In this document: piece by piece, positions 4,609 to 59,156 of the stretch
Layout of the letters: each line of letters opens with the position of its first letter
Numbering within the stretch: position 1 is the first letter of the stretch
IMG/VR virus record: IMGVR_UViG_3300045003_000166
Location: 1-64,000 of that record
Direction: 5' to 3' (one strand)
Origin: a virus
Length of the DNA stretch: 64,000 nt
The notes under the pieces: generated by a model
The model's database searches: none
What the model was told of the DNA's origin: nothing
The model's input: the letters and a program-made list of their open reading frames with translations, nothing else
Program-made: the position numbers and the translations under genes

Positions 4609-5873
4609 CCCAGTTCGGCTTCGTCAACTTCGGGCGCCTGCTCCTGGTCGAATTCCCCACCCAGGCCGCGTCACTCGCCGCCGCGGCGCCGTCCACGACC
4701 GCTCCCACCGGCCGCACACTGGCGCTCGCCGGCCAGGAGTCCACACCCGCCGCCCCCAACGTCGCCACCACCGCGGCCCAACTGCGCGCCCGGCAGGCCG
4801 ACCTGCTCGGCTCGCAGGGCTCCTTCCTCCCGGTCACCTTCACCGACAAGGCCGAACTCAACGGCTACTACACCGTCACCGACGTCTCCGCCGACCTGCA
4901 GAACTGGGAGCAGGAGGCCGTCACCCTCACCTGGAAGACGAACCTCGAGCGTATCGGCACCGACCTGGAGGTGGACCTCGAATCGCGGTTGACCGGTGGC
5001 ATCCGTAACTCCAGCTTCGCTGCGTCCGCGAACGGCGTGCGGTGGCACGCCCCTTCGATCGGCCACTACGCGTATTTCACCGCCTCGGGCAACACCCCGT
5101 CCGTGATCGTGCGCCAGAGCGCCGAAGGCGCCATGAACATCTACACGGGGCTTCCGCTGACCGGGTCCGTCATCCCTAGGTGGGGCTGTGCCGTCGGCAA
5201 CTACCTGGGCGGCCGGGTCCGCTTCCTCGACGACCAGGGCATCGAACGGGCCGGCATCCTGTTTGCCAACGGCTCGCCCTCCTCCTGGACGATCCTCAAC
5301 GCACTGGTCCAGGTCACTCCCTTGTCGTCCGGCGGTGTGTTCAACGTCGCCTCCTGGGCGAGCGGATCGTCCGCGTACCAGTCGAAGAACTGGGACCTGC
5401 AGTACAACAGCTCGTCACTCGGCGTGCCGCTGGGCATCAGTCTGCTGCGCAACGAGCCGGAGATCCTGGTCGCGCGCCTGATCTGGTCCACCACCGGGCC
5501 GAACCGGGTGACCGCGGACCTCACCCTGCGCCGCGGTTCCCGGTTCCTCGAGTTGTACCTGCAGTCGCAGGTGGCGGGCGTGCTCAAGGTAGTGCGCTCG
5601 AGCGCAGAGGCGGGAACGTCGGGCGGCTCCGGCGCATACCTGTCCGCCACCGCAAACGACGCGGCCGGAAACCGGTACGTCATCGGCAGCGCCCTGACCA
5701 ATACCCAGGACCTGGTGAACGGCGGCATCTCGGTGTCCGCCTCCACCACGTTCGACGCCTTCGTGGGCGCGGCCGTCGGCGGTTCCTCCGCCCAGGGCGG
5801 TGATGCGGCGTCGGACCTCTGGAATCAGTACATTGCGGCGCCAGCGGAGCTGGTGCAAGGCATCAGGCGGTAA
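4605..5873 (+). CDS. minor tail protein (distal tail-like)
   Basis: 422 residues starting at ATG 4605, overlapping the tape measure stop. The first 150 residues include VTFTDKAELNGYYTV and WEQEAVTLTWKTNLER, which fit the beta-rich N-terminal ring domain of distal tail proteins. The remainder is beta-rich and may bind carbohydrate. Position after the tape measure supports Dit or first minor tail protein. The exact family is not certain. Confidence 0.7.
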   Translation: MTQFGFVNFGRLLLVEFPTQAASLAAAAPSTTAPTGRTLALAGQESTPAAPNVATTAAQLRARQADLLGSQGSFLPVTFTDKAELNGYYTVTDVSADLQNWEQEAVTLTWKTNLERIGTDLEVDLESRLTGGIRNSSFAASANGVRWHAPSIGHYAYFTASGNTPSVIVRQSAEGAMNIYTGLPLTGSVIPRWGCAVGNYLGGRVRFLDDQGIERAGILFANGSPSSWTILNALVQVTPLSSGGVFNVASWASGSSAYQSKNWDLQYNSSSLGVPLGISLLRNEPEILVARLIWSTTGPNRVTADLTLRRGSRFLELYLQSQVAGVLKVVRSSAEAGTSGGSGAYLSATANDAAGNRYVIGSALTNTQDLVNGGISVSASTTFDAFVGAAVGGSSAQGGDAASDLWNQYIAAPAELVQGIRR

Positions 5874-18269: not shown

Positions 18270-18401
18270 TGAGGCTTGAGCGGATCCCGTGCCCGTGTCC
18301 GCGCGACTGCTCCGGTGTCGCGTCCACCATCACAGTCGGTTATCCGGGCGCAGTTGCCGGGATTAGTCTGCAGCCGTACCCGACCAGCTTGCGCCTCCGC
18401 G

Positions 18402-18475
18402 TGGCAGGGAGCGGATTTGAACCGCCGACCTCTGGGTTATGAGCCCAGCGAGCTACCGAACTGCTCCACCCTGCT
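18402..18475 (-). tRNA. initiator-type tRNA-fMet (CAT)
   Basis: Full 74-nt cloverleaf without encoded CCA. The anticodon arm is CTGGG-CTCATAA-CCCAG, so it has the three G:C pairs of initiator tRNAs. The first acceptor pair is unpaired (A1, C72). The D stem GAGC/GCTC has A11:U24. All three are initiator hallmarks and differ from elongator tRNA-Met. T arm is GGCGG-TTCAAAT-CCGCT. It is the last RNA of the leftward Ro/tRNA unit. The call is from base pairing by eye. Confidence 0.85.
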
Positions 18476-18797: not shown

Positions 18798-20453
18798 CTA
18801 CCCGCGCAGGAAGCCGGAAACGAGCTGAGGCAGGCTGGCGTCGAAACCCGCCACCTGCAGCACGCCCTCGTCCCGCGGGTCCGCGATCGTGTGCCCGGCC
18901 GCGGTCATCGACGCGACGATCAGTCGGGCGTTCGGGTTCCTCGCCGACCGGTACGAGCGCAGTGCCTGGGAGGGGTGCATCTTGCCCGCCCAGGTCTCGT
19001 TGTCGGTCAGGACCAGGAAGCCGTCCGCCACGACGCCCGCTCGCTGCGCCCATGAGAAGGGGAGCGAGAGGTCGGTGCCGCCCCCGGACGGACGCCACGA
19101 CTGGATCTCGCGCAGACTGGTGCGCGCCGTGAGCCGGGAGGCGTGGACACTGGTGTCGACGTCGATGACCTGGACGTTGCCCTTCTCGATCCGGGCCGTG
19201 GTCAGCGCCATGCCGTTCGCGACCTCGTACACGCTGCCCAGCGGCGAACCGCCGAGCGTCATGTGGCTGCTCATCGAGCCGGACGAGTCGACCGCGATCA
19301 CCAGCTTCCTTCCCGACGGCTCGACGTGGCCGAAGGAGAGCTCGAACGCCTCCTCCAGCGCGTCGGAGACGGCGGTGATCGGCGACCAGGTGCGCAGCTT
19401 CGCCTTCGGGTTGGGCTGCGCGGACCCTGAGTTGTAGACCTTCAGGGCGAGGTAGAGGTCCAGCGGGTGGACGCGCGCCTTCGCCAGGGCGCCCGAGTCC
19501 GTCAGCCGCTTCGCCACGTCGCTGACCGAGGATCCCAGCGGGGTGAGGGCGCCGATCCTCGTCATCCGGGCCAGGTTGCGGATCAGGGCCGTCAGGCCCA
19601 CTGTGTGCGCCAGCTCCGCCCAGACCTCCGGCGAGTCCAGCACGCCGTCGTCCAGGAACTCCCACGGCACGCGCAGCGTACGTACGGCTGTCACGGCCTC
19701 GGCCGGACGGGTCACCGACTTGGCGATCCGGTACTTCTCGACGCTCGGCAGCAGCGCGCCCGCCTCCGCCTCGGTGACGGTGCCGGCGAGCCAGCCGAAC
19801 AGCGCCCGGTACGCGGGATCTTCGACGTGCGGCTTCGCGAGCCGGAGCATGTCCTTGAGGGCGAACGGCTCGCCGGAGCCGGTCTTGCGCGCCTTCGCCT
19901 TACACGCCCGGAACGCGACCCGGTCCGCCTCGTCGGACAGGAACCAGTCAGTCAGGGCGGTGCGCATCAGCCGGTTCATCACCGGCTTCGTCCCGCGCCC
20001 CGACGGCTTGCCGCGCAGGTTCTTGTAGTAGCCCCAGAAGTGCGCCAGGTGGTCCGTGGTCCTCGCCACCCGGGGAAGCGCGGCGCGCGCCGCCCGGCGC
20101 GTGTCCAGGTCGCCGGTCGCGACCGCGGCGGCGAGCACGAACAGGGCCGGGAAGTTCTTCGGCGCGCGGGCCGGCTGCGCGGCACTGATCTGGGTGGCCA
20201 GGGCGACCGCGCGCACACCGTCGGCGGTGATCGCGTCGAACACGACCTTCGCGCCCGCGTAGGTGTGCTCCTTCTCCCCCACGTAGTAGGTGCCGCCCGT
20301 GGTGCCGAGGATGACGAAGTCCTCGAGCTTCGTCCACACGTCCTTGGCGAAGGTGAATCCGCCTGCCGAGTTGCGGACCATGTCAGCCTCGCGGCCCAGG
20401 ATCGGCTCGCTCTGCGGCGTACGCACGGTACTGATCGCGGACAGTGCGTCCAT
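18798..20453 (-). CDS. rsr: Ro60/TROVE-domain RNA-binding protein
   Basis: 551 residues, about the length of bacterial Ro (Rsr). Residues 1-370 are the helical TROVE repeats (NSAGGFTFAKDVWTKLEDF, RTTDHLAHFWGYYKNLRG, in part). The C-terminal third is a von Willebrand A domain with a full MIDAS: AVDSSGSMS near residue 385, GGGTDLS, and LTDNETWAG. Bacterial Ro proteins bind Y RNAs and misfolded RNAs and steer exonucleases. Four structured RNAs, three with tRNA-like parts, lie directly upstream on the same strand, as expected for Y RNA genes. Transcribed from the promoter at 21141-21170. Confidence 0.9.
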   Translation of the reverse strand: MDALSAISTVRTPQSEPILGREADMVRNSAGGFTFAKDVWTKLEDFVILGTTGGTYYVGEKEHTYAGAKVVFDAITADGVRAVALATQISAAQPARAPKNFPALFVLAAAVATGDLDTRRAARAALPRVARTTDHLAHFWGYYKNLRGKPSGRGTKPVMNRLMRTALTDWFLSDEADRVAFRACKAKARKTGSGEPFALKDMLRLAKPHVEDPAYRALFGWLAGTVTEAEAGALLPSVEKYRIAKSVTRPAEAVTAVRTLRVPWEFLDDGVLDSPEVWAELAHTVGLTALIRNLARMTRIGALTPLGSSVSDVAKRLTDSGALAKARVHPLDLYLALKVYNSGSAQPNPKAKLRTWSPITAVSDALEEAFELSFGHVEPSGRKLVIAVDSSGSMSSHMTLGGSPLGSVYEVANGMALTTARIEKGNVQVIDVDTSVHASRLTARTSLREIQSWRPSGGGTDLSLPFSWAQRAGVVADGFLVLTDNETWAGKMHPSQALRSYRSARNPNARLIVASMTAAGHTIADPRDEGVLQVAGFDASLPQLVSGFLRG

Positions 20454-20534: not shown

Positions 20535-20668
20535 AGGCGGATGTGGGAGTGAAGACCGGGTTTAAGCGTCTTAGGCCGCTGGACCACCGGACCGGGGAAA
20601 GGCCCGGGCAGGATTCGAACCTGCATCTCTCCTTTGGAAGAGGTAACCGATCTGCGTTCAACCCGCCC
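20535..20668 (-). ncRNA. permuted tRNA-Gly(TCC)-containing Y RNA-like unit
   Basis: Closing helix GGGCGG/CCGCCT, then GTTGAAC, then a second helix AGATCGG/CCGGTCT. Inside, the 3' part of a tRNA (anticodon CTTCCAA, V loop, T arm GCAGG-TTCGAAT-CCTGC, acceptor CCGGGCC, T73; 20600-20643) comes first. A 6-base loop follows, then the 5' part (acceptor GGTCCGG, D arm; 20565-20593). Rejoined, they give a tRNA with a perfect acceptor and a perfect anticodon stem CTCCT/AGGAG. U73 fits tRNA-Gly. Ends are inferred from pairing. Confidence 0.65.
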
Positions 20669-20722
20669 GAATTCGTGCTGGTGCCGACCCGTTCGCCTTC
20701 ACCGTGCGCGCGGGGCGGCGGA

Positions 20723-20856
20723 CCGGACGGATGTGGATTTTGGAACCGGGGGAAGTGCTGCCGCTACACCACAGAACCCGTTTCCGGATCCCGGCGGGAT
20801 TCGAACCCGCGCCTTATCTTTACGAGAGATAACCGATCCCTGTTCAACCCGTCCGG
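20723..20856 (-). ncRNA. permuted tRNA-Thr(CGT)-containing Y RNA-like unit
   Basis: Closing helix CCGGACGG/CCGTCCGG, GTTGAAC, second helix GGGATCGG/CCGGTTCC. Inside, in order: anticodon arm TATCT-CTCGTAA-AGATA, T arm GCGGG-TTCGAAT-CCCGC, acceptor 3' strand CGGGATC (20786-20831), a 7-base loop, then acceptor 5' strand GGTTCTG and a D arm GTGT/GCAC (from 20778 downward). The acceptor has three G-U pairs and C73 is not the usual Thr discriminator. The 3'-half-before-5'-half order is clear. Confidence 0.65.
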
Positions 20857-20914
20857 GTTGCCGTGCTGGTGGTGCTCAAAACCCGGACCCTGAGGGAACC
20901 GGGTGGTGCAAGGT

Positions 20915-21050
20915 GTCCGGATGTGGAGTCGACCACCGGTGTTAAGCGCTCTGCCAATTGAGCTACCGACCTGTTTTACCAGCTCGGGCGGGACTTGAAC
21001 CCGCAACCACTCTCTTAACAGGAGATAACCGACGGTCTTTCAACCCGGAC
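20915..21050 (-). ncRNA. permuted tRNA-Asn(GTT)-containing Y RNA-like unit
   Basis: Closing helix GTCCGG/CCGGAC, GTTGAAA, then a 10-bp helix GACCGTCGGT/ACCGGTGGTC. The enclosed 3' part has anticodon loop CTGTTAA, V loop TGGTT, T arm GCGGG-TTCAAGT-CCCGC, acceptor CCGAGCT and G73 (20980-21025). A linker GTAAAAC follows, then the 5' part with acceptor AGGTCGG and D arm GCTC/GAGC (20945-20972). Rejoined, it is a 73-base tRNA-Asn with the G73 expected for Asn and one G-G mismatch in the acceptor. Confidence 0.7.
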
Positions 21051-21064
21051 GAAGTCTGTGCGGC

Positions 21065-21133
21065 GGAACGGATGTGGAGTGCTGCTACCGGATCAATCGC
21101 CAAAAGATAACCGGCGGCGTTTCAACCCGTTCC
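21065..21133 (-). ncRNA. short Y RNA-like unit without a tRNA insert
   Basis: 69 bases. Closing helix GGAACGG/CCGTTCC, then GTTGAAAC, a second helix GCCGCCGG/CCGGTAGC with one mismatch, and the same 3' motif CTCCACAT. The inside is only a short loop where the other units carry tRNA halves. It starts at the predicted transcription start of the promoter at 21141-21170, so it is the 5' end of the array transcript. Confidence 0.6.
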
Positions 21134-21140
21134 GTGGAAC

Positions 21141-21170
21141 ACGCTACAGGGCGGCGTGACTATCCGTCAA
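21141..21170 (-). promoter_or_regulatory. phage promoter/operator driving the RNA array and Ro gene
   Basis: Leftward TTGACGGATAGTCAC at 21156-21170 with -35 TTGACG, an 18-base spacer and -10 TAGCGT (21141-21146). Predicted start about 21134, where the first structured RNA begins. It overlaps the 3' end of the upstream gene, where it encodes LTDSH. Confidence 0.75.
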
Positions 21171-23044: not shown

Positions 23045-23430
23045 ACCTGCTCCCCGACCGCGTGCAGGCGCCTGACCACCGTCTGCGCGATCCGGCCGGG
23101 AACGCCAGTGAGGGCGAAGAGCACCGCTTTCGCCTCCCGGGCCAGGGACTCGTCGTGTACGGCGAGCCAGCGCAGCACGTCCGGGTCCAGCAGGTCCCAC
23201 TTCTCCGGAGGCGCGGCCACGGTTCCGGTGTTCTGGCGGATGGCGATCAGGCCCTTGTCGATCAGGCACGCCACCGCCTCCCGAACGACCGTGCGCGACA
23301 CGCCGTACTGCTCGCACAGCTCGTGCGCGTTGGTGGCCTCCAGGTCGCCCGCGACGATGCGCGCGCCGAGGATCTCGACGAGCCGCTGGGTGAGGCTGGG
23401 GTTGGAGATGTGGTCCAGGGCGGCTGTCAT
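23041..23430 (-). CDS. GntR-family (FadR-type) HTH protein, short
   Basis: 129 residues. The N-terminal 70 residues are a winged helix of the GntR family (LTQRLVEILGARIVAGDL, CEQYGVSRTVVREAVACL, GLIAIRQNTGTVA). The C-terminal helical part is only about 55 residues, much shorter than a full FCD effector domain. It may be a constitutive DNA-binding protein. Overlaps both neighbours by four bases. Confidence 0.75.
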   Translation of the reverse strand: MTAALDHISNPSLTQRLVEILGARIVAGDLEATNAHELCEQYGVSRTVVREAVACLIDKGLIAIRQNTGTVAAPPEKWDLLDPDVLRWLAVHDESLAREAKAVLFALTGVPGRIAQTVVRRLHAVGEQV

Positions 23431-23939
23431 GGCCGCGCTCCTTCCAGGTGGCGCCGCGCACTGCACGTCGCACGGTATTGAAGAGCTCTTAGAGCGCTGT
23501 CTTTGATCCCCATCACCCGCGCCGCCTCGCACACGTCGAGGTCGAGCAGGAAGCGCAGCGTCAGGCACTTCGCCTGGGGAGCGGACAGACGGGGCAGTAC
23601 ATCGACGACAGCGTGGCGTTCCGCGAGCGTCGCCGGGTTGTCGGGCTCCCGGCCCCACACCATCGGCTCGTCCGCATAGAACTCGGCGCACAGGCCTTCG
23701 CGTTCGAAGCGGGCCGACTTGCGGAAGTCGAGGAATACGCGGGTGGTGATCGTCTGCAGCCACGGGCCGTAACCGCGCCCGTCGTCCGTGAAGCCGTCCA
23801 GATTGCGCAGGGCTTTGACGAACACGTCGTGGGTGAGGTCTTCCGCGTCACTCGCATTGCGCACGCGCAGGTAGAAGAACCGGAACACCCACGGGCGGTT
23901 GTCCGCGTAGAGCTGCGAGACCGCGTCAGTCCCGTCCAC
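23427..23939 (-). CDS. ECF-like sigma-70 family factor
   Basis: 170 residues. Region 2: QLYADNRPWVFRFFYLRV, then SDAEDLTHDVFVKAL, then PWLQTITTRVFLDFRKSA. Region 4 near residues 110-160: VDVLPRLSAPQAKCLTLRFL, followed by EAARVMGIKDSALRALQYRA. Likely redirects host RNA polymerase to phage promoters, but its target sequence is unknown. The main promoter class here looks like the host housekeeping type, so this factor may serve late or special genes. GTG start. Confidence 0.8.
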   Translation of the reverse strand: MDGTDAVSQLYADNRPWVFRFFYLRVRNASDAEDLTHDVFVKALRNLDGFTDDGRGYGPWLQTITTRVFLDFRKSARFEREGLCAEFYADEPMVWGREPDNPATLAERHAVVDVLPRLSAPQAKCLTLRFLLDLDVCEAARVMGIKDSALRALQYRATCSARRHLEGARP

Positions 23940-58978: not shown

Positions 58979-59082
58979 CGGCTCGGCACCCGACAGGCGC
59001 TCGGGGGTTCGCCTGTGCAACAACGGGCGCCGGTTACGCGCTCGACGCCGCAGCGTTGCCAAATACCGACGGCGGAGCGCGG

Positions 59083-59156
59083 TCCCGGGAACAGGATTTG
59101 AACCTGTGACCAGGGCTTGATAAGAGCCCCGCTCTACCTGGCTGAGCTACCCCGGG
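59083..59156 (-). tRNA. tRNA-Ile (anticodon TAT)
   Basis: Complete 74-nt cloverleaf: acceptor CCCGGGG/TCCCGGG, D stem GCTC/GAGC, anticodon arm GGGCT-CTTATCA-AGCCC, T arm ACAGG-TTCAAAT-CCTGT, A73. The anticodon reads TAT, which would decode ATA, a rare codon in a GC-rich host. C at position 37 is unusual. CCA is not encoded. Driven by the promoter at 59202-59231. Confidence 0.8.

Follow-up and report, generated by a model that had tools for sequence, protein, structure and literature searches.

Y RNA-like units beside a viral Ro gene carry complete, circularly permuted tRNAs with anticodon arms

Bacterial Y RNAs of the YrlA type mimic the D, T, and acceptor arms of tRNA (PMC8394870), and the tRNA-like domain of YrlA has been suggested to inhibit an anticodon nuclease competitively (PMC7790460). 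Mycobacterial hosts contain many anticodon nucleases, and phage tRNAs have been proposed as a counter to them (PMC10264068). Y RNAs were reported earlier from mycobacteriophages (Chen 2014, as cited in PMC12282133). The stretch of DNA analyzed here (the window; 64,000 nucleotides, part of the IMG/VR virus record IMGVR_UViG_3300045003_000166 of 72,563 bases) contains an array of four tandem units, A to D, read on both strands over positions 20535-21133. The units lie directly upstream of a Ro60/Rsr gene and are codirectional with it. Three of them combine a Y RNA stem with a complete, circularly permuted tRNA that includes an anticodon arm. They are very likely Ro-partner Y RNAs of the YrlA kind, in a variant that carries the whole tRNA.

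Read from 5' to 3', the tRNA-bearing units begin with a closing helix, the motif GTTGAA, a second helix, the motif GGTTAYC, an anticodon arm, variable bases, and a T arm. They continue with the 3' strand of the acceptor stem, a cap loop, the acceptor 5' strand, U8-R9, a D arm, and an A-rich linker, after which the second helix is completed by its 3' strand and (C)CACAT leads to the closing strand. The original prediction had described four tandem units sharing one plan, three of them holding a whole permuted tRNA with its anticodon arm. Both descriptions stand: all units are on the minus strand, with GTTGAA, GGTTA(T/C)C, and (C)CACAT where they had been placed, and the permuted tRNAs agree with the sequence and with the six helices found by RNAalifold. 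The anticodons of the joined tRNA-Asn(GTT), tRNA-Thr(CGT), and tRNA-Gly(TCC) are likewise those claimed, although the predicted fold of unit A prefers a competing helix.

The minimum-energy fold of unit B contains all six helices (z -3.2), with an anticodon stem of 6 bp (TTATCT/AGATAA); the inner anticodon stem of unit C has 3 bp (CCT/AGG). In unit A, the minimum-energy fold favors a YrlA-type helix, TGTTAAG/CTTAACA, over the anticodon hairpin. The relatives SM23 and FuzzBuster lack the complement for the competing helix and keep the anticodon hairpin, which opposes the competing helix as the true structure in general. The loops capping the acceptor stems range from 0 to 16 nucleotides (nt), are unconserved, and are often tetraloops (UUCG, GAAA, GCAA). 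Neither a conserved discriminator nor a conserved CCA is present among the units compared, the caps varying in both length and sequence, so that the discriminators G73 (Asn) and U73 (Gly) read in the original prediction are not meaningful.

Covariation supports the complete structure, which is all but certain. An alignment of 24 tRNA-bearing units made with MAFFT yields an RNAalifold consensus comprising the closing helix, the second helix, the anticodon arm, the T arm, the acceptor stem, and the D arm, and the motifs GNYGA and CGGTTAY are near-invariant. Changes on both sides occur in 25 of the 35 consensus pairs, anticodon stem included, so that the compensating changes seen between the units of the window extend to many phages, and the conservation of pairing in relatives, which had been set as a test, is found as helices kept and covarying across the alignment. 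Paired cells make up 94.5% of the consensus structure, compared to 72.1% in shuffles; double-change cells number 193 versus 62, and covariation scores 0.629 against 0.203. None of 500 shuffles is as high for any of these three measures, figures that are not probabilities, since the consensus derives from its own alignment and the units are related. Sliding the partners against each other lowers pairing to 30 to 47%.

MAFFT puts the anticodon loop out of register, since the start of the arm shifts by one base in either direction between units, and a loop-anchored block alignment served as a second count of the anticodon stem. Here, the inner anticodon stem is paired in 98.6% of cells, compared to a mean of 65.8% and a maximum of 78.3% in 1,000 shuffles; the closing-helix and acceptor strands of this alignment were picked for best pairing, so the values for those two helices are inflated. 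A 7-nt loop with U33 and at least 3 closing pairs is found in 25 of 35 units with a T arm; in 1,000 shuffles, the number averages 5.0 and never exceeds 11. When the best 7-nt hairpin is chosen without constraint, a shifted loop is picked in some units. Most units lack the outer anticodon pairs 27-43 and 28-42 because the GGTTAYC motif occupies those positions.

The loops themselves resemble those of genuine tRNAs. Loops for Asn (CTGTTAA), Asp (CTGTCAA), Thr (CTCGTAA and CTTGTAA), Gly (CTTCCAA), Gln (TTCTGGT and ATTTGGA), Ala (ATTGCAA and CTTGCAA), Phe (CTGAAAA), Cys (CTGCAAA), Ser (CTGCTAA), Ile (CTGATAA), Pro (ATTGGGA), and Arg (ATGCGGA and CTACGGA) occur among the units, and 7 of 18 distinct loops exactly match a real loop from a small set of 43, compared to 0.2 expected. 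U33 is present, almost always together with a purine at position 37. A34 is rare, one case being CTACGGA in L194, an Arg ACG anticodon; Arg ACG is the usual A34 tRNA in bacteria. An A at position 32, where reference tRNA loops mostly have a pyrimidine, was observed in ATTGCAA, ATGCGGA, ATTGGGA, ATTTGGA, and ATGCTAA, from units of L160, L170, L155, L171, L156, L164, and L211.

Anticodon identity varies between units within one array and between orthologues. The Asn loop sits on four different complementary stems, and the orthologous units of BearBQ (Ser GCT) and Cashline (Cys GCA) are 93% identical outside the anticodon arm and 67% identical inside it. In this switch, the loop and its matching stem are both replaced, so that the arm persists as a hairpin under a changing identity.

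The assignment to the YrlA kind draws on the neighboring gene and on Rfam. As judged from its domains, that neighbor is a genuine Ro/Rsr gene (Pfam vWA_Ro60, 1.6e-42; TROVE, 8.2e-19) with an E value of 2.5e-75 to Rsr of Deinococcus radiodurans (2nvo), in agreement with the adjacency first proposed. Rfam reports nothing above threshold over the array. At relaxed limits, the YrlA model (RF02553) matches unit A with 40.8 bits (E 2e-7) and, weakly, unit C with 20.4 bits. These scores miss the gathering score of 69, as does the best among relatives (50.7 bits), and many true-looking actinobacterial YrlA RNAs likewise fall below it; the Y RNA-like character of the stems is thus upheld with a subthreshold match, and a description of the units as Y RNAs derived from tRNAs fits well.

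Comparable units in phages, uncultivated relatives, and actinobacterial genomes lie mostly near Ro genes. Ro is present in 344 of 50,697 phage records, mostly from Mycobacterium and Streptomyces phages, and similar units are located upstream of this gene and, for some phages, inside tRNA clusters as well. They occur in the Microbacterium phages SM23, FuzzBuster, and Magritte; the Gordonia phages Cashline, BearBQ, Boopy, Neville, and GMA2; the Mycobacterium phages Sparky, Pleione, Tonenili, Myrna, ScoobyDoobyDoo, and Phabba; the Mycobacterium abscessus prophage prophiGD43A-5; and the Rhodococcus phage Weasels2. The IMG/VR relatives L002 and L003 encode a Ro protein with 75% identity and homologous arrays, each headed by a short unit like unit D. 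Several of the phage units appear in public records as ordinary tRNAs (Table 1). In mycobacteriophage LeBron, no GGTTA-type unit was found in the ∼540 bases upstream of the Ro-like gene (L209:10744-12162). The Ro-like protein, RNA ligase, and polynucleotide kinase of this phage are each toxic on overproduction (PMC13148394).

Searches of actinobacterial genomes with the Rfam YrlA model and model R1 recovered chromosomal units as well. These searches also catch neighboring ordinary tRNAs as partial hits to model positions 28 to 105; their counts are therefore not used as prevalence, and the hits cited are exclusively full-length ones, each read on its own. A motif scan of genome contigs was discarded, its matches being mostly single and due to chance. 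Two bacterial loci are of the phage type, a unit in G280/L214 (Arg TCG) and an array in G320/L215 (Asn and Ser CGA), each beside a Ro gene 56 to 58% identical to that of the window. The chromosome-type units mostly have GATACTTC or GTTACTTC in place of GGTTAYC, and here too anticodon arms occur (Asn, Asp, Lys, Glu, Pro, Ser, Arg, and Gly), sometimes in arrays.

A possible promoter precedes the array, and the arrangement TTGACR-N18-TANNGT can also be read ahead of the arrays in L002 and L003. The phage itself encodes a sigma-70 family factor (window 23427-23939, minus strand; Pfam Sigma70_r2 and r4_2). Two ordinary tRNA genes are found in the window, tRNA-Met(CAT) just downstream of Ro (18401-18475, minus strand) and tRNA-Ile(TAT) far from the array (59081-59156, minus strand).

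Table 1. Coordinates of the array, the adjacent gene, and related units
Feature	Location	Strand	Description
Ro60/Rsr gene	window 18798..20453	minus	551 aa; HEAT-like TROVE region and vWA domain, DSSGS metal-site motif
Unit C	window 20535..20668	minus	Y RNA stem and permuted tRNA-Gly, anticodon TCC 20638-20636
Unit B	window 20724..20855	minus	Y RNA stem and permuted tRNA-Thr, anticodon CGT 20824-20822
Unit A	window 20915..21050	minus	Y RNA stem and permuted tRNA-Asn, anticodon GTT 21019-21017
Unit A, T arm	window 21004-20988	minus	
Unit A, acceptor 3' strand	window 20987-20981	minus	
Unit A, acceptor 5' strand	window 20972-20966	minus	
Unit A, D arm	window 20963-20948	minus	
Unit D	window 21065..21133	minus	Short Y RNA-like hairpin, closing helix GGAACGG/CCGTTCC, without tRNA body
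Possible array promoter	window 21141..21170	minus	TTGACG, 18 bases, TAGCGT; weak, unreported by consensus scan
Unit mislabeled as ordinary tRNA	L153:3985-4051		SM23, tRNA-Asn in public record
Unit mislabeled as ordinary tRNA	L159:2250-2328		prophiGD43A-5, tRNA-Thr(tgt)
Unit mislabeled as ordinary tRNA	L210:1179-1255		Magritte, tRNA-Arg(tct)
Units mislabeled as ordinary tRNA	L164:5034-5101, 5220-5308		Boopy, tRNA-Ile and tRNA-Leu
Unit probably mislabeled as tRNA-Asp	Myrna NC_011273 95168-95249		From a 75% match only
Reduced units, Streptomyces phages with Ro	L162:1889-2005; L165:1598-1714; L168:1919-2028		T arm kept, loss of D arm, degenerate anticodon arm
GATACTTC-type anticodon-armed chromosomal units	L175, L176, L186, L191, L202, L205, L223-L231, L242		

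As to function, we tentatively regard the units as mimics for enzymes that read anticodons, most plausibly host anticodon nucleases, a proposal held at somewhat less than even confidence. The array would encode Ro-partner RNAs of the YrlA kind, in which the closing and second helices, supported by covariation, form the presumed Ro-binding stem. This stem presents a complete tRNA body in permuted order, its acceptor end closed by a loop and its anticodon arm retained, as the sequence and covariation show. Because the acceptor end is closed, the RNAs would be neither charged nor used in translation, and the variable caps, often tetraloops, indicate that aminoacylation is not what is kept. Since the arm is real and each array holds several isoacceptor types, the RNAs may be recognized by enzymes that read the anticodon arm. 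Stabilized by Ro, they could compete with tRNAs for host anticodon nucleases during infection or be cut in their place. The occurrence of the arrays beside a true Ro/Rsr gene, in the window and in many phages, agrees with this proposal, and the changes of identity within arrays and between orthologues are what an arms race against anticodon-specific enzymes would be expected to produce.

Several observations weigh against it. Many units in the same arrays have no tRNA body or no anticodon arm, and the Streptomyces phages examined have no D arm: in phages of the Spelly and Daubenski kind, the T arm persists but a recognizable D arm has been lost, and a proper 7-nt anticodon loop is missing from most. 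The arm is thus not required everywhere. Anticodon-armed units also reside on bacterial chromosomes, so the role cannot be phage counterdefense alone, and Salmonella YrlA, which is armless, is not cut by the anticodon nuclease studied (PMC7790460).

A somewhat unlikely alternative is the ordinary role of a Ro-Y RNA pair, in which the RNA would gate Ro and tether a nuclease such as PNPase for the decay of structured RNA, with the tRNA body as a structural platform and the anticodon arm as a tolerated inheritance from a captured tRNA. YrlA and Rsr act in this way in D. radiodurans and Salmonella (PMC8394870), classic Streptomyces YrlA RNAs (L179 and L188) do without the arm, and the short units that share the arrays have no tRNA body at all. 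An arm inherited freely should decay, yet its stem is compensated, its loops are still valid anticodon loops, and the identity switches between orthologues bring new matching stems.

Less probable again, and rather doubtful, is a role toward tRNA maturation enzymes or synthetases at large, for example, anticodon-loop modification enzymes, which the units would mimic substrates of or serve as regulated substrates, thereby modulating tRNA modification or charging in infected cells. TruB and DusA modify YrlA (PMC8394870), the retained loops would extend such modification to enzymes of the anticodon arm, and the Asn and Asp loops, with their UGU core, recur in phage and bacterial units. Sequestration of synthetases would, however, harm phage translation too, and the many isoacceptors among the loops do not point to a single targeted enzyme. 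The units are still more improbable as sensors, each answering a different host anticodon nuclease: cleavage of the matching loop would nick the Y RNA, which would then stop gating the Ro ring and leave Ro switched on during infection, or the cut ends would themselves be read.

The original prediction also allowed for precursors that are cut and ligated into working tRNAs. Such conversion is unlikely because the caps are closed and unconserved, no conserved discriminator or CCA exists, a bulge-helix-bulge is lacking at the junction in the predicted folds, where stem and linker are continuous, and the RtcB and RNA_ligase families find no match in the phage record of 72,563 bases, which is possibly incomplete. 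A permuted tRNA gene of the sort known from some algae and archaea (PMC3978253) would be cut between the D arm and the anticodon arm, ligated, and opened at the acceptor loop, a course of very low probability here. ARAGORN calls a tRNA in 21 of 21 units rejoined in silico, 18 with the expected anticodon, compared to 1 of 24 in native order. With the anticodon arm shuffled, it still makes 71% of the calls, so these results support mainly the T, acceptor, and D arms and are not taken as strong support for the anticodon arm. Tetraloop caps would use up the acceptor end, the general lack of the outer anticodon pairs fits poorly with a working tRNA gene, and there are sister units without D arms. 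That the units are ordinary native-order tRNA genes in decay, and that they read as permuted by chance, is hardly credible, as the only two ARAGORN calls on the window array, a native-order tRNA-Gly and tRNA-Thr, both take their acceptor and D arm from the Y RNA stem, the Rfam tRNA model stays below threshold across the array, native-order calls are so rare among the related units, and the permuted structure covaries.

The units extend bacterial Y RNAs from mimics of three tRNA arms to complete permuted tRNAs with changing anticodons, in actinophages and some of their hosts. The proposed inhibition of anticodon nucleases by the tRNA domains of Y RNAs becomes directly testable, since each unit names a candidate target. 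Several phage genes annotated as tRNAs in fact encode Y RNAs, with possible consequences for surveys of the tRNAs that phages carry, and the Rfam YrlA model scores such units under its cutoff. No description of anticodon arms in Y RNAs was found in the literature searched, which excluded Chen 2014, Wang 2018, and Sim and Wolin 2018, and priority is uncertain.

Among the known systems, the short Y RNAs of vertebrates and Deinococcus are similar in being stem RNAs that partner Ro, and unit D resembles a minimal one. The short Y RNAs and unit D presumably share GGUUAUC-like bases; short Y RNAs are not known to include an entire tRNA body and its anticodon arm. In the permuted tRNA genes of algae and archaea, the 3' half of the tRNA likewise lies ahead of the 5' half, joined by a loop at the acceptor end (PMC3978253). 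Here, in contrast, the permuted tRNA sits in Y RNA stems beside Ro in phages of bacteria, with neither a bulge-helix-bulge nor a conserved acceptor terminus or CCA. The proposed anti-nuclease tRNAs of phages also comprise several isoacceptors, encoded by phages whose hosts have anticodon nucleases (PMC10264068); they are functional tRNAs for which resistance to cleavage has been proposed, whereas the present units should be unchargeable as encoded and would be mimics. The closest likeness is to YrlA itself, with which the units share the Ro neighbor, the terminal stem, the permuted order of T arm, acceptor, and D arm, and RF02553 scores of 20 to 51 bits. In units B and C and in the relatives, the connecting helix of the Rfam YrlA consensus is replaced by an anticodon hairpin, and unit A can form either a helix of the connecting type or the hairpin. 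Contrary to YrlA, the units have a real anticodon arm, its loop of 7 nt containing U33, and a single array includes several isoacceptor types.
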